9,289 nucleotides of DNA, from assembly GCA_012841485.1 (NCBI GenBank), contig DUUU01000348.1:1-9289 (forward strand), written 5' to 3'. Every line of letters begins with the position of its first letter. The first letter of the stretch is position 1. The stretch comes from Armatimonadota bacterium. Its GTDB lineage: Bacteria > Armatimonadota > JAAZEB01. A program made the position numbers and the translations under genes. Shown piece by piece: positions 1,655 to 9,174 of this stretch. The notes beneath the pieces are model-generated. The model was not told where the DNA came from, searched no databases, and saw only the letters and a list, made by a program, of their open reading frames with translations.

Positions 1655-2152
1655 TCAGAGGGCGCTCAGATCCATGTAGTAGGTGATACTACTCGTGGAG
1701 CGGTCGAAGCCCGCTTTCTCATAGGAGCGCCGGGCGGGCGCGTGCGCTGGGTCGAGGCCCGTGGTCACGCGGGCGGTATGCATCCCGCGCTCGCGCATGA
1801 TCCGCAGTGCTTCCCGATGCTGCGCCGTGCCGATCCCCGAGGCCTGACACTCCGGGTCGACCGCGTTGTTGCCAATCTCGCCGACGCCCGTCTCGGGGTG
1901 GATGATGAAGGTGATGAAGCCCGCGATGGCGTCGTCGATCTCGGTGACGTAAACGCAGTCGGGCCGGGCGCGCGCGGCCTGGCGCACCTGATCCGCCTTC
2001 CGTTCCTCCCAGCCGGTGTATAGCCGGGCGAAAAGCTCCTCGCCCAGCGCCTCGCGATAGTAGGCATAGATCGGCTGCCATGCCCGGACGGCGATCTGCG
2101 CGATTCGCTCCACCTCATCCGGGCGCACGGGTCGGAAACACCGGTTGCTCAT
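1655..2152 (-). CDS. GNAT family N-acetyltransferase
   Basis: 165-residue protein, typical for a single GNAT domain, which moves an acetyl group from acetyl-CoA to an amine. The acetyl-CoA pyrophosphate-binding motif A is QASGIGTAQHREAL (103-116, Q-x-x-G-x-G), preceded by the beta-strand block GEIGNNAVDPEC. Motif B is AHAPARRSYEKAGF (136-149), ending in the usual Y-E-K-x-G-F; the position before A, often Asn, is His here. An N-terminal segment (AWQPIYAYY..LGEELF) resembles the opening helices of the family. The start is ATG at 2152 with GGAGAG just upstream. The frame is open much further upstream (to about 2809), but that extension is antisense-like, low-complexity R/G/A protein overlapping the DUF58 gene and is not real. 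It lies 98 bp downstream of DUF58 on the same strand, probably as the last and loosest gene of the operon. Substrate unknown. Confidence 0.88.
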   Translation of the reverse strand: MSNRCFRPVRPDEVERIAQIAVRAWQPIYAYYREALGEELFARLYTGWEERKADQVRQAARARPDCVYVTEIDDAIAGFITFIIHPETGVGEIGNNAVDPECQASGIGTAQHREALRIMRERGMHTARVTTGLDPAHAPARRSYEKAGFDRSTSSITYYMDLSAL

Positions 2153-2204
2153 GCTTCTCTCCGTTTCGGTTGGGACGGCGCCCGCCGTCCCAGATGCTTC
2201 TCTC
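2151..2204. repeat. 11-bp direct repeat (ATGCTTCTCTC) flanking the hairpin
   Basis: Perfect copies at 2151-2161 and 2194-2204, one on each side of the 2171-2192 hairpin. Read on the minus strand each is GAGAGAAGCAT. The downstream copy contains part of the ribosome binding site and the first two bases of the acetyltransferase ATG; the upstream copy repeats the same sequence but continues as ATC instead of ATG. Confidence 0.75.
2171..2192 (-). repeat. Strong GC-rich hairpin between DUF58 and the acetyltransferase, REP-like
   Basis: Arms of 10 bp (TGGGACGGCG and its exact reverse complement) enclose two bases, so the real loop is probably about 4-6 nt. On the minus strand it is followed by AACCGAAACGG with no U-tract, so it does not look like a standard intrinsic terminator. 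It may be a mRNA-stabilising stem at the 3' end of the DUF58 coding region, an attenuator before the acetyltransferase, or a copy of a genome-wide palindromic repeat. Confidence 0.7.
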
Positions 2205-2250
2205 ACTGGCGGGTGACTTCGGCGGTGGATGGCTCGATCCCTCCCGCGGC

Positions 2251-3510
2251 CTAGTGCGTGGGATACTCCGCGGGCACTTGCAGGTCGGCGGCGCCAACGA
2301 CGACCACCCGGAGGCCGTGGTGGCGCAATCGGGTAGCATTCACCTGCGTGGCGGCCGCGGTCCGGCGCCCGGCGCGGCCAGGCTGCGCGGCATCGATCAG
2401 GAGCACCAGTGTCTCGCCACCGCTTTGCAGACGGATGGCGGCTTCCACCACCGCCTCGTCGGCGAATGGCGTGATGATGAGCGTGGTACGCCCCGGCACA
2501 ATGCCCTCGGCCAGATCGGCGGGCGAGAGTTTCGCGTTCGGCTCCACGCGCGCCAGCGCCTCCAGAAGGAGGGGGAGCGCCTCCGGTCCATAGCCATCCA
2601 CCTGATCCACGGCCTTTCCGCGCGCGAAACGCAGTCGCCCCTGGCCCCCCTGATCCAGAATCTGGCCCAGCCACGAGGCCGCGGCGGTGACGGCCAGCTC
2701 TAGCGGCGGGCCAGAGGCGCGCGAGTCGAGGACCACGAGCACGTCGCCTACGGTGACTGGCTCGAACTCGATGACGACCATGCGCCCCATGCGCGCGCTG
2801 GTCTTCCAATCGACGCGGCGGAGGTCATCGCCCGGGTGGTAATCCCGGAGGCTATGGAAGTCGAGCCCGTGTCCCGGCAGCACGGAGTGGCGCGGCGACG
2901 TGCTTCCGTAGGCGCTCTCCCCCAGATACTCGTGATACTCGATGCGGCAGATGCGAGGGTAGACCAAGACCTCGCCGGTTCCGGGCAGGGCGCGCCGCCG
3001 GCGGAAGAGCCCCAGCGGATCGGTGGCCACTACCTCGACCGGCGCGAGCGGATAGGCCCCGCGCGCGGGCGCGGTCATCACGCCCTCCAGAGAGGCACGT
3101 TGGCCCGGCCAGAGCACGGCCAGCAGATGGTGTTTCGGAACGGCGTCAATCCCGGGGGGAATCCCCGCGCTGATTCTCAGAAACACCTTGGGCAACCGGC
3201 TCTTGTTCTCCGCGGTCAGCGTGAAAGGCGCCGCCTCGCCGGCCGTGAGCGGAGTGGGAACCTCGCGCGAGACGGCGACGTGATGAAGCGAGAGCGTGCT
3301 GAGAAGGTAGGAGAGGAGAGCGACGCCGAGGACCATCGCTCCCATGACGAAGAGCTGGCTGGCATGGAGGATGGCGGCGACGATGAAAAAGAAGAGCGGC
3401 CCGATGAGGGCGACCGTCAGCAGCGGGCTGCGCGCGCGCAGGAGCGCGAGGAGCAGCACCGCCGCGACGGCGATGATCACCAGGCTTGCCGGGCTATACG
3501 GGGCGTTCAT
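2251..3510 (-). CDS. DUF58 domain-containing membrane protein (MoxR-associated)
   Basis: 419 residues. The N-terminus is hydrophobic, with two or three membrane segments (about 7-24, 30-49 and 53-70), followed by a soluble beta-rich part (VSREVPTPLTAGEAAPFTL onward) with the family block DPLGLF (164-169). The DUF58 signature LRDYHPGDDLRRVDWKTSAR is at 221-240. Beyond it VLVVLDSRASG (257-267) begins a VWA-like fold with a partial MIDAS pattern (D262, S266). DUF58 proteins almost always pair with MoxR ATPases and are thought to work with them in assembling or activating metal- or envelope-associated proteins; the exact activity is unknown. Its start overlaps the MoxR stop as ATGA (3510-3507), so translation is probably coupled; no clear Shine-Dalgarno is visible. 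Length and order of parts are normal. Confidence 0.92.
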   Translation of the reverse strand: MNAPYSPASLVIIAVAAVLLLALLRARSPLLTVALIGPLFFFIVAAILHASQLFVMGAMVLGVALLSYLLSTLSLHHVAVSREVPTPLTAGEAAPFTLTAENKSRLPKVFLRISAGIPPGIDAVPKHHLLAVLWPGQRASLEGVMTAPARGAYPLAPVEVVATDPLGLFRRRRALPGTGEVLVYPRICRIEYHEYLGESAYGSTSPRHSVLPGHGLDFHSLRDYHPGDDLRRVDWKTSARMGRMVVIEFEPVTVGDVLVVLDSRASGPPLELAVTAAASWLGQILDQGGQGRLRFARGKAVDQVDGYGPEALPLLLEALARVEPNAKLSPADLAEGIVPGRTTLIITPFADEAVVEAAIRLQSGGETLVLLIDAAQPGRAGRRTAAATQVNATRLRHHGLRVVVVGAADLQVPAEYPTH

Positions 3511-4487
3511 CTGCGTAGCACCGGCACGGGCACCGAGCGCAGGATCTCCTCGACGGTGCTCTCCGCGGTGATGCCGCGCGCTCGAACCTCCGGTTTGAGT
3601 GAGATACGGTGGGTGAGGACCGCGGGCGCCACCGCCTTGATATCGTCCGGGATCACGTAGGTTCGACCTGCGGTCGCGGCGTAGGCCTGTGCGGCACGCA
3701 CCAACCCGAGCGAGCCGCGCGGACTGGCGCCAAAGTGGATCGCGGAATGGCGGCGAGTGGAATCCACGAGCTTGACCACATACTCCCGCAGGGCGCGCTC
3801 GATGTGAATGCTGGTGACCATCTCCTGGAGCATCACCACCTCCTCCGGCGTGACCACCGGTTTCACGTCTTCGATGGGATGGCGCTTGATCTGCCGCTCC
3901 AGCAGGAGAAGCTCCTCTTCGTTACTCGGGTAGCCCAGGGAGAGGCGCATCAGGAAGCGGTCGAGTTGTGCCAGGGGCAGCGGGAAGGTGCCCTGCGACT
4001 CCGTGGTGTTCTCGGTGCCGATCACGAAGAAAGGATGGGGCAGGCGGTAGGTGACGCCGTCACGTGTCACCTGGCCCTCTTCCATGCACTCCAGGAGGCT
4101 CGACTGCGTCTTCGGCGTGGCCCGGTTCACTTCGTCCGCCAGGAGCACGTTTCCGAACACCGGGCCCGGGCGAAACTCGAACTCTGCCGTCTTCGGGTTG
4201 AAGATCGCCGTGCCGGTGACATCGGCCGGCAGGAGATCGGGCGTGAACTGGACGCGCTTGAAGCTGCCTCCCACGCTGCGCGCGAGGGCGCGCCCGAGCA
4301 TCGTCTTGCCGACTCCGGGAATATCCTCGATCAGGAGATGGCCGTTGCACAGGAGGGTGACCACGGCCAGCCGGACCGCCTTCGCCTTCCCGATGATCAC
4401 CGTCTGGATCTCGTCGACGATGCGCGTGGTCTTCTCTGCCAGCGTTTGCAGGTCTGTGTCGGAGAGTGGTTCAGTCGCGTGATTCAA
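3507..4487 (-). CDS. MoxR family AAA+ ATPase
   Basis: 326 residues, usual size for MoxR. Walker A is DIPGVGKT (55-62, K61), Walker B LLADEVNR (115-122, D118/E119), and sensor 1 falls at N150. The arginine-finger region LDRF (165-168) and sensor 2 GASPRG (243-248, R247) are present, so ATPase residues look complete. The usual family ATQNP block is changed to GTENT while keeping the Asn. The start is an unusual TTG at 4487, chosen because AGGAG lies 8 bases upstream and the reading begins MNHATEPLSDTDL; no sensible ATG exists before the conserved core. MoxR ATPases act as chaperone-like motors with DUF58/VWA partners. The gene begins 4 bp after the transglutaminase stop and overlaps DUF58 by 4 bp, making a tight three-gene module. 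Confidence 0.95.
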   Translation of the reverse strand: MNHATEPLSDTDLQTLAEKTTRIVDEIQTVIIGKAKAVRLAVVTLLCNGHLLIEDIPGVGKTMLGRALARSVGGSFKRVQFTPDLLPADVTGTAIFNPKTAEFEFRPGPVFGNVLLADEVNRATPKTQSSLLECMEEGQVTRDGVTYRLPHPFFVIGTENTTESQGTFPLPLAQLDRFLMRLSLGYPSNEEELLLLERQIKRHPIEDVKPVVTPEEVVMLQEMVTSIHIERALREYVVKLVDSTRRHSAIHFGASPRGSLGLVRAAQAYAATAGRTYVIPDDIKAVAPAVLTHRISLKPEVRARGITAESTVEEILRSVPVPVLRR

Positions 4488-4491
4488 GGGG

Positions 4492-6627
4492 TCAGCTCCT
4501 TTTCCAGCGTCGCGGCAGCTTGCGGATGGTTGCTGTCAGCGCCCTGGCCATGCTGGCATCCGGGAGGGTAGAACCAACGGGCGCATAGCACGCCTGCTCG
4601 AAGAGATGGGTGAGCGCCTCCATCGACTCGCGGATCTCCGCCGGCAGCTCGGATGCGCGGACCACCGCCAGATACTCCTCGGCGGTCTGGCCCACCTGGC
4701 GCGGCACTCCCCGGCGCGCCAGGTGCCGGCACGCCTGGTGATAGGCGTGTTGCGTCTCCCCGCGAGGGTCGGAGGCCTCCGGACGAAACCGGATGCTGGC
4801 CTCTTCGTGCCGGCGCCTCCCCCGCGCGCCGGCCACCACGGCTCCGAGGATGCCGAGGAGCAGCGCCTCCGCGAGGAACGTCAGCCCTCGTGGCGACAGT
4901 TTGCTCAACCATGCCTGCCATTCTCTGCCGGACGGCGAGCCCGCCGGCGCGTCGTTACCAGGGGTTGGGTCGAAGGGGATCCAGCCGTAGGGTCGGGTGT
5001 AGATCTCGACCCAGGCGTGGGCATCGCGCTCGCGTACCAGGTAGGTGCCATCCTCCTCCGGTTCTGTGAGCAGGTAACCGGTGACCAGGCGCGTTGGAAC
5101 GCCGAGCGCGCGGCAGAGCACGGCGGTTGCTCCCGCGAAGAGATCGCATGCGCCCTTTCTTCCGCTGGTGAGGAAGTGAACGATGGGGTCCTCGTTTCGT
5201 GGCGCCGATGGAACCGAGAGGGAGTAGCGGCAATGCGTGCGCAGGTAATCGGCAATCGCCTCGGCGCGCGCGTAGGGCGTTCGTTCCTTGCCGGCGATGG
5301 TGAGCGCCAGCTCGCGAACCGGGGCCACGGAGACGGGGATCTGACTCCAGTGCCCATCCTCCGGGGGCTGGCCGCCCGGCGCGCGCTGGAGCAGCGCCTC
5401 GGGCACATCCGGCACCTCGGAGACCACCGTGTAGGTGTCGCCCTCCCGCCAGTCCGTCTTGCCAGAGACAAGGCCCGTCACATCCACAGTCAGATCATCG
5501 CGGGTGGTTATCACCTCCAGGGGGATGCCGGCGCAGCAGACGCTTCCGGGTACCCTGCCAAGGAGATCCACCTGCTGGGTGACGCGGCGGGCGTGCTCTT
5601 GTGGCGGGCGCGAATGCTCGGGCGGGTGGGTAGAGGAGCGCCGTCTCTCCTCGCGCGCCTCCTCCTGCCCGGCTGCGGCATCCAGATCGCGGAGGCGGCG
5701 CATCGCGGCGTGTCGCCCTCGTCGCTCTGCCGGGTTGTCTCCGAGAGGGATGCTGGCCTCGATGAGCGGGGACTGCGACCAGCGGCCCCGCTCGTAGAGA
5801 TCATAGACGCGCCCGCGCAGCAGGCCAGGCGCCGTGGTCTTCACCCGCATCAATACCTGCTCCCCGGTCGTGCGCATCCCGCCGGCCAGGCTGACGGTTT
5901 CAGAAAGGCGCGAGTAGCCTGGGTCATCGTTCGTAGAGAAAAGGGTGCGCCGCAAGCGGTCACGCTCCGCGGGCGTCAGGCCGGGAGTGAGGCGCTGGGA
6001 GAGCGAAGCGAGCGGGAAGGAGAGGGGCAACAGCACGGCTAGGTAGCCGGCGGCCAGCCCCAAGGCGGTTCGCGCGCTCCGCCGCGGCCAGGGCGATCCC
6101 GTGCCTGGGGAGCTCTGCGAGAGGAGATGCTCGTAAGCCATCGCGTAGACCGCGCCGAAGAGGAAGCCAGAGAAGGAGGCCTGCACGCTGAAGCCTGGGG
6201 TGAAGACCCCCGCCAGGCCATAGATGGAGAGGGCGGGGACCGCGGTGGCCACCATCGGCACGCGCCGGCCGCGGAGGCAGGCGCCCGCCACGAATGAGAG
6301 GAAAACCACCGCGAAGACGAGCCCCACAAGCAGGCTGGCGCCACTCTTCTGATGCAACACCTGGGCGCAATCAAGCAGGGGATCGGGTGGGCTGGGGCGG
6401 AACGCGGCAAAGGCAACGCCGGCGAGTGCCGCCAGCGCGAGGGCCCGAATCGCCGCCACCGGCCACCAGTGGGATAGGGTTGCGGATGCGTACCCCAGGG
6501 CGATCATCAGGAGGGATGCGCGCGTGAACGGCTCCATCCCCAAGGCACGGCCGGCCTCCCAGACCGCGCAAGCAGAGGCGAGCGCCGCTGCCGCTGCCGC
6601 CGGCCCTCTCTGTGGACCGCGGGTCAA
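4492..6627 (-). CDS. TgpA-like membrane transglutaminase-domain protein with C-terminal DUF4129-like tail
   Basis: 711 residues from the TTG at 6627. The first ~210 residues form several membrane helices (about 36-50, 56-76, 98-118, 125-145, 187-208), as in TgpA. Next is an extracytoplasmic part with the TgpA-type block LLRGRVYDLYERGRW (269-283). A charged low-complexity insert (about 300-350, rich in R, E, H, P) precedes the transglutaminase-like core. The catalytic triad is visible: Cys494 in GRKGACDLFAGA, His537 in DAHAWVEIY, Asp553 in FDPTPG. A last membrane helix (about 582-602) leads to a cytoplasmic tail (624-700) of DUF4129 type. Such proteins sit next to MoxR and DUF58 and probably process or cross-link envelope proteins outside the inner membrane. 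The start TTG overlaps the preceding stop (TTGA) and has AAGGGAGAG 7 bases upstream; the frame is open 26 codons further upstream without better support. Confidence 0.92.
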   Translation of the reverse strand: MTRGPQRGPAAAAAALASACAVWEAGRALGMEPFTRASLLMIALGYASATLSHWWPVAAIRALALAALAGVAFAAFRPSPPDPLLDCAQVLHQKSGASLLVGLVFAVVFLSFVAGACLRGRRVPMVATAVPALSIYGLAGVFTPGFSVQASFSGFLFGAVYAMAYEHLLSQSSPGTGSPWPRRSARTALGLAAGYLAVLLPLSFPLASLSQRLTPGLTPAERDRLRRTLFSTNDDPGYSRLSETVSLAGGMRTTGEQVLMRVKTTAPGLLRGRVYDLYERGRWSQSPLIEASIPLGDNPAERRGRHAAMRRLRDLDAAAGQEEAREERRRSSTHPPEHSRPPQEHARRVTQQVDLLGRVPGSVCCAGIPLEVITTRDDLTVDVTGLVSGKTDWREGDTYTVVSEVPDVPEALLQRAPGGQPPEDGHWSQIPVSVAPVRELALTIAGKERTPYARAEAIADYLRTHCRYSLSVPSAPRNEDPIVHFLTSGRKGACDLFAGATAVLCRALGVPTRLVTGYLLTEPEEDGTYLVRERDAHAWVEIYTRPYGWIPFDPTPGNDAPAGSPSGREWQAWLSKLSPRGLTFLAEALLLGILGAVVAGARGRRRHEEASIRFRPEASDPRGETQHAYHQACRHLARRGVPRQVGQTAEEYLAVVRASELPAEIRESMEALTHLFEQACYAPVGSTLPDASMARALTATIRKLPRRWKRS
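4496..4500 (-). promoter_or_regulatory. Ribosome binding site deciding the TTG start of the MoxR gene
   Basis: AGGAG on the minus strand, 8 bases before TTG at 4487 and lying inside the last codons of the transglutaminase gene. It is the main evidence for the TTG start. Confidence 0.7.
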
Positions 6628-7655
6628 CGGGTCGCTCTCCCTTGCGCCGGCTTGCCGGAAGCGTGGATCCCGATGGTCTCGAGCGGGAGCCACGAGGCCT
6701 GCCACTTCAAGTCAAGGGCGCCCGTCGGCCCCACCTGGTGATACTCGATGACCGCGTCGTGCCAGCCGCGCGAGAGCCTCACGGGCGAGCCAGCCGTTTT
6801 CCCGCGAGGGGCGATGCGCCAGGAGTCGACCACCACCTTCCCATCCAGAAGGAGGAGCGCCGCCCCGTGGATGGGATCAAAAGAGAAGGTGTAGAGGTCA
6901 TCGGCGGGCACGAAGAGGCGGCCCGTCCAGCGCGCGCTCCACCCCGTCGGGCCCACGCCGGGAGCCGGACCGGTTTCGCTCCAGCTTCCGCCCGGGCGTG
7001 CGTCGGTGCGCCTCACCGGCGTGACTCCCTCAGGCGGGACGGCCAGGAGCGCCGAAAGCGAGCCATCGGCGAGCTCGCAGGCGGGATCGTTGTAGTAGAG
7101 GGCCTTCAACCCGGCCGGATCCCAACCCCGGGGCGCGCTCAGGAGCGCCTTGCCCGTCTTCTGCTCGACGGCGCGCTCGACGCGATACTGCTGCGCGGCC
7201 ACCCGCTTCCAGCGGAGCCCCAGCGGCGGGAGAATGACGTCGAGCATATCCTCGAGGGCCAGATCTCTGCGGCTGCAAGAGACCTTGCCGCGGACATCGG
7301 GGGCGAGCCTGAAACGCACCTGGGCGCTCTCTTCCAGCACCGCCAGCACCGTGCGGATGTCAATCCCGCGCACATCGAGGGAGACGCGCGGCCCGCGTCC
7401 CGGAGTGAGCGGGACTCGGTTGCCCTTGGCCCCGGCGGCAGGAGGGTTCGGAGCCGCATGGAGCATCGCGATTCCGGCTAGCAGGAGCATGGAGATCAGG
7501 AAGGCACTCGCGCGATACCAGCTGGAGAAGGCAAGAGGCCCGCGCGCGCCCGGCAGGCGTTGCTCGCCGGCCATGCTCCGGTTTCTCACCTCCGGGTGGG
7601 TCTGGTCCATTAGGTGTCGCTGTCGGTTGCCGCGCATGGAGCCCTCGGAGTTCAC
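6624..7655 (-). CDS. Membrane-anchored or secreted protein: STN/secretin N0-like domain fused to a divergent PA14 domain
   Basis: 343 residues from GTG 7655, which overlaps the upstream stop as GTGA. One hydrophobic segment (about 47-66, WYRASAFLISMLLLAGIAML) is an anchor or late signal peptide. Residues about 88-150 match the secretin/TonB short N-terminal pattern: SLDVRGIDIRTVLAVLEES, then LAPDVRGKVSCSRRDLALED and MLDVILPPLGLRWKR, ending QYRVER. From about 172 follows a PA14-like region: GLKALYYND, ARWTGRLFVPADDLYTF, LLLLDGKVVVDSW and GWHDAVIEY. The usual DDG calcium-binding pair seen in the neighbouring PA14 protein is replaced by IHG (about 262-264), so ligand binding may be altered. GTG 7655 has a poor ribosome site; ATG 7574 (316 residues) follows a perfect GGAGGTGA (7586-7593) with a long 11-base spacer and gives a more normal signal sequence. 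Both starts are plausible. No described family with this exact architecture is known to me. Confidence 0.82.
   Translation of the reverse strand: MNSEGSMRGNRQRHLMDQTHPEVRNRSMAGEQRLPGARGPLAFSSWYRASAFLISMLLLAGIAMLHAAPNPPAAGAKGNRVPLTPGRGPRVSLDVRGIDIRTVLAVLEESAQVRFRLAPDVRGKVSCSRRDLALEDMLDVILPPLGLRWKRVAAQQYRVERAVEQKTGKALLSAPRGWDPAGLKALYYNDPACELADGSLSALLAVPPEGVTPVRRTDARPGGSWSETGPAPGVGPTGWSARWTGRLFVPADDLYTFSFDPIHGAALLLLDGKVVVDSWRIAPRGKTAGSPVRLSRGWHDAVIEYHQVGPTGALDLKWQASWLPLETIGIHASGKPAQGRATR
6635..6643 (-). promoter_or_regulatory. Ribosome binding site deciding the TTG start of the transglutaminase gene
   Basis: AAGGGAGAG on the minus strand, 7 bases before TTG 6627-6625. The TTG shares two bases with the TGA stop of the upstream gene. 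Together these favour this start over longer versions of the frame. Confidence 0.65.
7586..7593 (-). promoter_or_regulatory. Possible ribosome binding site for an alternative start (ATG 7574) of the STN-PA14 gene
   Basis: GGAGGTGA on the minus strand, 11 bases before an in-frame ATG at 7574-7572. It is a perfect anti-Shine-Dalgarno match, though the spacing is long. If used, the protein loses 27 N-terminal residues that do not look like a signal peptide. Confidence 0.4.
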
Positions 7656-8851
7656 TCTTTCGGCAACCCCGCGACCAGGTGCGGGACTGCGGGAGACGGG
7701 CGTGCCCGGATGATCTCCTTGCCAAAGCTGGAAGAACTCCAGGCGAGGCGGATCGAGGCATGGTGCTCGGGCCCCTGGCAGTAATCGACACGGATGTCAT
7801 GGATGCCAGCTTCCAGGGGAACGGCGCGAATGACGGAGATCCCCTGTTGGATCATCCAGGAATCGATCACCATCTGCCCGTCAATGAAGAGGCGAGCGCC
7901 GTCATCCAGGGCATCCAGGTAAAAGATGTAGGTATCGGAGGCAGGCGCCAGGAGTTTCCCGGTCCAGCGAACGCTGAAGTAGGTGGGGGGCACGCCCGGG
8001 GCGGGCGGCTCCATGTTCCAGGCGAAGTTGATGGCCGGATCGATGCGCGTCGTCACCAGGCGAGTGAAGGTTGGAAAAGTGTAGGGTGTATTGAGGGGAT
8101 AGTCGCCAGCGGCGCGCGTTGGATCGGCGTAGTAAGCGGCCAGGAGACCCTCGTTCAGGAAGCCCCGGTTATGCGTGGCGCCGCCCGTGCCATGCCGGCC
8201 GCGCGGCATACCCTGACCTTGCTTGCCCAGAGTCTGCTCGGTGCCCGGCAGACCCGGCTGCGAAGTTCGGGATGCCAGGTCGAAATCAGGTGCAGGGAGC
8301 TCCTCGCGAACCGCATCGGGTGCTTCCGGCGTGCCGATGGCTGCGGCCATCGTTCCCTCGGCGACTGGCGGTGCCTCCGGGTCGCCCTCGCCATCGCGCG
8401 GCGCCTTCGGAGAGGCCACTGCCGGTTGCACCGGCTCGGTGCCGCCCGGTGCCGTCGGAAGGCCCGAAGCAGGCGAGCCAGCTGGCCGGTTCGGTTCCCC
8501 CTCGGGCATGCGAGATCCAAGCTCTGGCTGTGGGGCGGTGCGTCCAGCAAGCACGTCACGCCTCGGAGGAAGGACGCGGGCAGTACGCATCCGCGGGCGA
8601 GAGGCCACCGTTGGCTTGCCCCGCGGCGCCACGCGCTTCGCGCGCGGGGGGCCTGCCGGCTTCTCGGTGCCCGTGGCGTCGCCAGGGGCCCGCCCATCCG
8701 CCAGCGTGCCCGACATCGGGAGGAGCGTCACCTCGACGATCCCGACGGAGCGTGGCCGTGAGCCCCGGAGGGCGCTCAGGAGCAGGGCCGCCCCGAGCAC
8801 GTGTAGCATGGCCGACACCAAGAGACAACGCTTGATTATCCTTCGCTCCAT
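7652..8851 (-). CDS. TonB-like N-terminus plus Pro-rich linker fused to a C-terminal PA14 domain
   Basis: 399 residues. Basic N-terminus (MERRIIKR), then one membrane helix (about 9-28) containing S13-A-M-L-H17, the SxxxH spacing that TonB uses to contact ExbB/ExbD, and a following strand VGIVEVTLLPM as in TonB-family proteins. Residues about 50-225 are a disordered Pro/Ala/Gly/Arg/Glu-rich linker. Instead of a TonB C-terminal domain, residues about 235-372 form a typical PA14 domain: GLLAAYYAD, FSVRWTGKLLAP, DDGARLFIDGQMVIDSW (316-332) with the Asp pair intact, LEAGIHDIRVDY, and ASIRLAW. PA14 domains usually bind carbohydrate or ligand outside the cytoplasm. ATG 8851 is chosen because the membrane helix follows directly; the frame is open up to 9121 but that part is unlike protein. 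The ribosome site (GGTGG) is weak. First gene of the operon; its stop overlaps the next start. Confidence 0.85.
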   Translation of the reverse strand: MERRIIKRCLLVSAMLHVLGAALLLSALRGSRPRSVGIVEVTLLPMSGTLADGRAPGDATGTEKPAGPPRAKRVAPRGKPTVASRPRMRTARVLPPRRDVLAGRTAPQPELGSRMPEGEPNRPAGSPASGLPTAPGGTEPVQPAVASPKAPRDGEGDPEAPPVAEGTMAAAIGTPEAPDAVREELPAPDFDLASRTSQPGLPGTEQTLGKQGQGMPRGRHGTGGATHNRGFLNEGLLAAYYADPTRAAGDYPLNTPYTFPTFTRLVTTRIDPAINFAWNMEPPAPGVPPTYFSVRWTGKLLAPASDTYIFYLDALDDGARLFIDGQMVIDSWMIQQGISVIRAVPLEAGIHDIRVDYCQGPEHHASIRLAWSSSSFGKEIIRARPSPAVPHLVAGLPKE

Positions 8852-8928: not shown

Positions 8929-9174
8929 AGGCCGGGATTCCGAGACAGGAGCCCGATCTGGGCACAGAGACACCCGGCTCCAATGCCCAGACCTCTCCCG
9001 CCTCTTCTCCCATCGCCCCGCGGGCGGCGCTGCCCCGGCCCCTTCGCGGTCCTCCGAGAGCGCCACTCAGATGGCCATCCCCGGGCTCTGGATGGGATCG
9101 CACAATCCTGGGTGCGCGCACGTCCCCATCCGCGTCTGCCCCCTTTATCCATGGTATCGATGCCGGCTTCTCGT

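Follow-up and report, generated by a model that had tools for sequence, protein, structure and literature searches.

Motors of the ExbBD/TolQR type have two well-understood outputs, the opening of TonB-dependent receptors and the movement of Pal. The PA14 fold often binds sugars. Here we describe gene 1, which lies in a 9,289-nucleotide stretch of DNA (the window, analysed at its full length) from an Armatimonadota bacterium (GenBank assembly GCA_012841485.1, contig DUUU01000348.1). Gene 1 encodes a 399-residue protein in which a TonB-like inner-membrane anchor and a Pro-rich linker lead to a C-terminal PA14 domain (Table 1). We put at roughly 0.8 the probability that it belongs to a class of Armatimonadota force transducers of the ExbBD/TolQR type whose tip is PA14.

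In TonB, the D-box is a strand that is captured by the ExbD dimer, with prolines flanking it (accessible part of PMC10907165). Force transducers with a vWA tip were recently described beside TPR, TolQ and TolR genes (Williams-Jones et al. 2025, PMC12204202, accessible text). This vWA output was proposed without a known function, and the accessible main text of that survey has no mention of PA14 or DUF4159. The accessible text of a 2026 review mentions neither PA14 nor vWA, and that of a 2025 MotAB paper does not mention PA14. The literature searched, whose coverage leaves out many subscription journals and preprints, contained no description of PA14-tipped force transducers, and no paper treating a PA14 domain together with TolQ or DUF4159 together with ExbD. 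Papers naming a PA14 domain with TonB, ExbB or ExbD concern polysaccharide enzymes, as judged from listings alone.

The gene 1 open reading frame (ORF) starts at an ATG, and a longer in-frame ORF from a GTG at 9121 is also present. The first nine residues are basic and are followed by a single helix with an SxxxH motif (S13, H17), as had been proposed from the letters of the window and its ORFs alone (the sequence-only reading). The structure model, used for the helix and the fold family only, agrees with this: its mean predicted local distance difference test score (pLDDT) is 42.7, with a confident helix at residues 2-30 (blocks of 76, 91 and 74), values below 50 over residues 31-291, early PA14 included, and blocks of 55-84 over PA14 residues 291-380. 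The TonB-like strand noted after the membrane is borne out by VEVTLLP, which fits the TonB D-box pattern and starts at V39, 22 residues past H17. The Pro-rich linker is present as well, although its length, given earlier as ~175 residues, is nearer 190. The C-terminal PA14 domain is intact and scores 80.2 bits (PF07691, cut-off 24, E=1.8e-22), with the DDG motif at D316-D317-G318. A sub-threshold GLEYA is the sole other Pfam match at E<=0.1, and no model of the TonB C-terminal domain (PF03544/PF13103) matches at that level. An overlooked TonB C-terminal domain was rejected, the C-terminal half scoring with PA14 alone. Because the TonB C-terminal domain is absent, gene 1 is a force-transducer variant and not a TonB. 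This reading of the layout is right, and the protein is probably coupled to ExbBD.

Proteins with the same layout of anchor, linker and PA14 are encoded after ExbD in eight genomes of the phylum (G001, G002, G004, G006, G007, G008, G009 and G056). ExbB is seen in seven of them and an upstream TPR gene in six; seven of the transducers have SxxxH and one has TxxxH. At contig C98 of G001, the nearest genome, the order is TPR, ExbB, ExbD and a 741-residue protein that combines SLVLH and ARVIEVAVIQ with a Gly/Pro-rich linker and PA14. The same TPR-ExbB-ExbD-PA14 order occurs in G002, G008 (L007), G009 (L008), G006 and G004. The G007 locus (L006) begins within exbB and has a PA14 transducer after ExbD, and in G056 (L123) ExbD is followed by a PA14 transducer at the contig end. 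The membrane Asp is kept in the four PA14-linked ExbD proteins aligned (4/4). Eight genomes is a lower bound, because most of the 105 genomes (of 291 in the phylum) with an ExbD match at E<=1e-15 are uninspected, 36 ExbD loci having been inspected, and because the phylum PA14 search missed G056. The genome-level search was confined to Armatimonadota as grouped by the search tool; NCBI places G007 in Abditibacteriota.

The PA14 domain of gene 1 is 55, 51 and 51% identical to those of L006, L007 and L008 and 39% identical to those of both L042 and L043. It has in common with the ExbD-linked PA14 domains the lead-in RGF..G...YY.DP, and the DD motif is invariant in gene 1 and all 11 aligned PA14 rows. 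By these alignments the gene 1 PA14 and the ExbD-linked PA14 domains appear to be one subfamily. The protein database, in a search that depends on shared 5-residue words, yielded four close PA14 tips, and one of these, P0035, belongs to the L007 protein itself. The presence of same-anchor PA14 proteins directly after ExbD in eight genomes supports the earlier suggestion of an ExbBD-contacting envelope protein with a new output, and we infer the docking of the window protein itself.

A genome lacking exbB- and exbD-type genes had been considered fatal to such a role. G001, which has a full gene 1 orthologue at 87% identity with gene 2 adjoining it, has four ExbD loci. Those on C124 and C112 are followed by TonB_C proteins. 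At C151 the tip after ExbD is DUF4159-like by similarity, with the anchor in another frame, and its G002 counterpart (L047) is DUF4159 by Pfam. Among the genomes of this family (G001, G002 and G003), ExbD matches number 4, 4 and 3 and MotA/ExbB matches 6, 6 and 3, some of the latter being flagellar MotA.

The alternative that survives best is a plain signal-anchor PA14 protein, in which the helix does no more than hold a carbohydrate-binding domain in the periplasm and SxxxH is due to chance, or is a relic in an orphan copy whose coupling was lost. It is favored by the lack of linked exbBD genes in the window and in G001, and by the ease with which the motif arises: shuffling the gene 1 helix yields SxxxH in 9% of cases. 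Shuffling the following stretch yields a D-box in 8.5%. SxxxH in one sequence is weak evidence, as the sequence-only reading had cautioned, and it is conservation across relatives that argues otherwise. Among the 26 protein-database matches to gene 1, of which 10 were viewed and 16 left out, there are three unfragmented full-layout homologues (87, 50 and 49% identical). H17, E40, V41, L43 and L44 are invariant in the gene 1 protein and these three. P0005 (50% identical), P0006 (49%) and the G001 orthologue all have S13 and H17; in P0005 and P0006 the surrounding helix varies while S13, H17 and the D-box region stay, which speaks against a mere tether. S13 is not visible in P0003, where H17 alone is readable, because this protein is recorded from M15. 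The conservation of S13 and H17, proposed earlier as a check, thus holds: the His is kept throughout the full-layout homologues, and so is the Ser in those with a complete N-terminus.

More distant relatives give the same picture. In 13 PA14-transducer N-termini, near relatives included, the His is present in 13/13 and the Ser in 12/13 (Thr in G004), and a strict D-box follows in 11/13, always 21-23 residues after the His. The G004 N-terminus was scored by eye, as TxxxH without a strict D-box. Ten PA14-transducer N-termini are 13-26% identical to gene 1 (84% for the orthologue), and across them H17 is invariant and S13 is found in all but one. Among ExbD-linked transducers, SxxxH occurs in 7/8 with PA14, 6/7 with vWA, 3/3 with DUF4159 and 9/13 with TonB_C (L124 and L046 left out), so the PA14 transducers retain the motif as well as the ExbBD-adjacent TonB_C proteins do. 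By comparison, it is found in the first hydrophobic segment of 0/11 distinct PA14 proteins of the ordinary kind from the same phylum, a control in which the 5' end had to lie >150 bases inside the stretch and 7 rows near an edge were not counted. Most of these 11 resemble signal-peptide proteins. A chance SxxxH, which is not excludable from the single sequence, was rejected on the conservation across relatives and this control. Together with the location of the relatives in motor operons, these results make a plain anchor improbable.

The force-transducer reading draws further support from the exchange of tips on a common anchor. The 36 inspected ExbD loci have PA14 tips (8), vWA tips (8), DUF4159 tips (4) and TonB_C tips (13), and three are without an assigned tip (L044 and L140, at contig ends, and L141, with no transducer next to it). 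The vWA tips comprise six assigned by Pfam and two that are frame-shifted and vWA-like (L122, L124). The TonB_C tips comprise eight assigned by Pfam, L088 and L089, and, by similarity, L132, L133 and L090. The ExbD-linked TonB_C proteins of L137 (256-1332, minus strand) and L139 (4270-5127, minus strand) have Asn at the expected anchor His. The DUF4159-ended transducers are a further ExbBD-linked type, assigned by Pfam in L047 (2163-3740, plus strand) and L135 (2099-4429, minus strand) and by similarity in L046, whose anchor is in another frame, and L048.

The N-termini of PA14 and vWA transducers match in profile-profile comparison with a probability of 97.3 (E=2.7e-11, 62 columns). The comparison included 7/8 vWA loci (L124 left out) and 9/13 TonB_C loci (L133, L137, L139 and L090 left out); vWA and TonB_C anchors match with a probability of 93.9, but over 22 columns only. 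On the strength of the first match, the PA14 and vWA transducer anchors are homologous. In a midpoint-rooted tree of ExbB and ExbD, with similarity-assigned tips serving as labels, the PA14-linked motors are not one clade (approximately unbiased (AU) test, p=3e-6) and neither are the vWA-linked motors (p=0.0016). The tree holds 33/36 loci: L123 (PA14) is absent since the contig stops short of exbB, L140 and L141 were left out, and L044 is unlabelled.

The clearest tip exchange is provided by G056 (PA14; L123:2370-3944, minus strand) and G055 (vWA; L127:5378-7018, plus strand). These genomes belong to one family and different genera, and their ExbD proteins are 60% identical. The two transducers are 48% identical over residues 1-354/1-351, after which the tips diverge; across anchor and linker the identity lies at 46-58%. 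With a low-complexity filter, the anchors are 46% identical over 48 columns (E=5e-12) and the linkers 53% identical over 103 columns (E=7e-23). With PA14 in one and vWA in the other, the pair is a clean case of tip exchange on a common anchor and linker. A same-genus pair, G004 (PA14) and G005 (vWA), was not accepted as evidence of a swap: between the two, ExbB and ExbD are just 57% identical, G004 groups with G006 in the tree, and beside the G005 locus a TPR gene was not picked. PA14-tipped force transducers are real and arose at least partly through tip swapping.

Several observations weigh against the placement of gene 1 in this class. The G001 contig with the gene 1 orthologue (C193) has no MotA/ExbB or ExbD match, and the window gene is likewise unlinked; none of the 7 ORFs scanned in the window is exbB or exbD, as had been remarked from the outset. 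The unlinked type is rare, G001 being alone in the phylum search and the protein database adding only P0005 and P0006. Between the PA14 anchors and the phylum's TonB_C proteins the match is weak (probability 54, E=1.3e-4, with the TonB_C set drawn from 9/13 loci). A strict D-box is missing in 2/13 PA14-transducer N-termini. The SHLS motif is incomplete, with Leu at H+7 in 6/13 and Ser at H+11 in 0/13; in gene 1 the Leu is present (L24) and the final Ser is absent. Moreover, SxxxH is not universal even in ExbD-linked TonB_C proteins, those of L137 and L139 being without the His.

A further alternative, which we find less credible than a plain anchor, is that gene 1 encodes a sensor. It would be a PA14 receptor in the inner membrane and signal the presence of a polysaccharide, as the anti-sigma factor RsgI3 of clostridia does. 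Among solved structures, RsgI3 (6qe7, E=2.1e-39) and its homologue from C. clariflavum (6qdi, E=1.1e-33) are indeed nearest to the PA14 domain and are also top in the structure-model comparison, and the RsgI3 PA14 pair binds pectin-like polysaccharides (accessible part of PMC4711584). However, gene 1 has ~9 residues before the helix core and no anti-sigma or kinase domain, no regulator was seen among the neighbouring genes scanned, and the long Pro-rich linker and D-box are features of a transducer. A motor-reporting sensor would overlap with the force-transducer reading. Weakest is the idea that gene 1 serves the assembly of the gene 2-5 cluster (N0-PA14, transglutaminase, MoxR, DUF58) independently of proton force, for although genes 1-5 run consecutively on one strand as an apparent operon, gene 2 also has a PA14 and genes 1 and 2 adjoin in G001 as well, such a scaffold would leave the S/H and D-box conservation and the eight motor-linked relatives unexplained.

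If gene 1 encodes a force transducer, a mechanism can be proposed. The helix would dock on the ExbB pentamer via S13 and H17, and the V39-L44 strand would join the ExbD dimer. Driven by the flow of protons, the motor would then pull the gene 1 protein, while the PA14 domain may hold a glycan or protein on the peptidoglycan or the outer membrane. The window gene is best described as an unlinked paralogue, for which both the coupling to ExbBD and the ligand are what we infer from the class. Without adjacent motor genes, this copy would share one of the ExbBD sets of the cell, and the co-encoded N0-PA14 protein of gene 2 would be its likeliest partner.

The motor-linked loci resemble a Tol operon. 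L007 (1066-3873, plus strand) and L081 (2013-4862, plus strand) encode a TPR protein of 935-949 residues upstream of exbB, with repeats for which tol_pal_ybgF is the best match (E=7.5e-103 and 6.8e-88, respectively). The motor subunits of L007 score best with TolQ and TolR, both below the cut-off. From their genes and neighbourhoods, PA14 and vWA arms appear to occupy a Tol-like operon. TolB and Pal were not found among the 7 window ORFs. No Pal was found in the G001 family, where the OmpA-domain matches are MotB (G001, G002) or a 522-residue solute-binding-like protein (G003), and TolB_N gave one marginal match in the three genomes, in G003; these absences are provisional because the genomes are incomplete metagenome-assembled genomes (MAGs). 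With this TPR gene ahead of exbB, L007 and L081 may represent a Tol-like operon that lacks TolB and Pal. TonB-dependent receptor plugs number 2 in G001 and 1 in G002 and were not found in G003; at least two genomes of the family therefore have a Ton system.

Tentatively, and with considerable doubt, a wider picture may be sketched. Armatimonadota could possess a Tol-like trans-envelope motor (CpoB-like TPR, TolQ-like and TolR-like proteins) without TolB and Pal and with an exchangeable PA14 or vWA tip, DUF4159 standing on a further motor type. Proton force might then act directly on surface or cell-wall glycan, or on different envelope partners, and not on the TonB box of a receptor, and the window copy would be a secondary arm with the N0-PA14 protein. 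As tips are exchanged on a common anchor, the motor may be seen as a platform whose outputs can be replaced. The PA14 domain adds a tip with a fold that often binds sugars, so that the target of the motor becomes testable by a glycan-binding assay. This may bear on outer-membrane attachment in diderm lineages where Pal was not found here.

Table 1. Features of gene 1 and its neighbours in the window
Feature	Position	Strand	Basis
Gene 1: TonB-like inner-membrane anchor, Pro-rich linker and C-terminal PA14, 399 residues	7652..8851	-	Translation, Pfam, homologues, structure model
Gene 1 transmembrane helix core, residues 10-28, with S13 and H17 (8801-8815)	8768..8824	-	Structure-model helix 2-30; hydrophobic segment, SxxxH
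Gene 1 D-box-like motif V39-E-V-T-L-L44-P45, predicted ExbD-binding strand	8717..8737	-	Pattern test; definition from accessible part of PMC10907165
Gene 1 Pro-rich periplasmic linker, residues 46-232, probably disordered	8156..8716	-	Sequence; pLDDT <50 over 31-291
Gene 1 PA14 domain, residues 233-381, DD motif D316-D317	7709..8155	-	PF07691, E=1.8e-22; identity to ExbD-linked PA14 domains
Gene 2: signal peptide, PilQ-type N0 (about 7131-7397), PA14 (about 6696-7040) without DD motif	6624..7610	-	Domain searches, alignments
Gene 3: membrane transglutaminase (Transglut_core and DUF4129), start codon uncertain	4492..6705	-	Domain search
Gene 4: MoxR-type AAA ATPase	3507..4487	-	Domain search
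Gene 5: DUF58 protein	2251..3510	-	Domain search

Neither gene 2 nor either of its two close homologues retains the DD motif. G001, too, has gene 1 and gene 2 grouped with the downstream genes, and there the transglutaminase frame (L045:8909-10576, plus strand) appears to stop early, at 555 residues against 737 in the window. G068 encodes a protein in which N0 precedes two PA14 copies (L083:6834-8306). A 384-residue ORF of the window (1655-2809, minus strand) encodes a GNAT acetyltransferase towards its C-terminal end, whereas the beginning of the ORF lies over the DUF58 gene in a different frame and is probably untranslated. Plasmid matches to gene 1 cover <=38% of the query, mainly the PA14 half.

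Among known systems, the PilQ secretin has a counterpart in gene 2, whose N0 matches the PilQ N0 (4ar0, E=7.9e-9); unlike PilQ, gene 2 is without a secretin ring domain and has its N0 joined to PA14. The PA14 pair of RsgI3 is the closest solved relative of the gene 1 tip and is likewise a C-terminal PA14 on a membrane protein, but RsgI3 has a cytoplasmic anti-sigma part where gene 1 has only the short stretch before its helix. The Tol-Pal system is approached by the PA14-linked operon L007 in its succession of TPR (tol_pal_ybgF-like), TolQ-like, TolR-like and transducer genes; TolA differs in that the linked transducers have no match to the model of its domain III. TonB shares with gene 1 the single N-terminal helix with S-xxx-H, the D-box-like strand and the Pro-rich periplasmic linker, and, like the PA14-tipped relatives of gene 1, is found after exbB-exbD. 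It differs in its C-terminal domain, which PA14 replaces in gene 1, and the nearest genome also has TonB_C proteins beside their own ExbBD. The vWA-tipped transducers, as described in the accessible text of PMC12204202, share with gene 1 an SHLS-like anchor, a motor-box strand, a linker and a globular tip other than that of TonB, and with the PA14-linked loci the TPR-TolQ-TolR neighbourhood; within the phylum their anchors are homologous on the profile match given above. They differ from gene 1 in their tip, which in gene 1 is a PA14 with no vWA fold. Synteny with motor genes is seen in the eight PA14 relatives and not for the window gene. The PA14-tipped transducers are siblings of the vWA-tipped ones in the 2025 survey.

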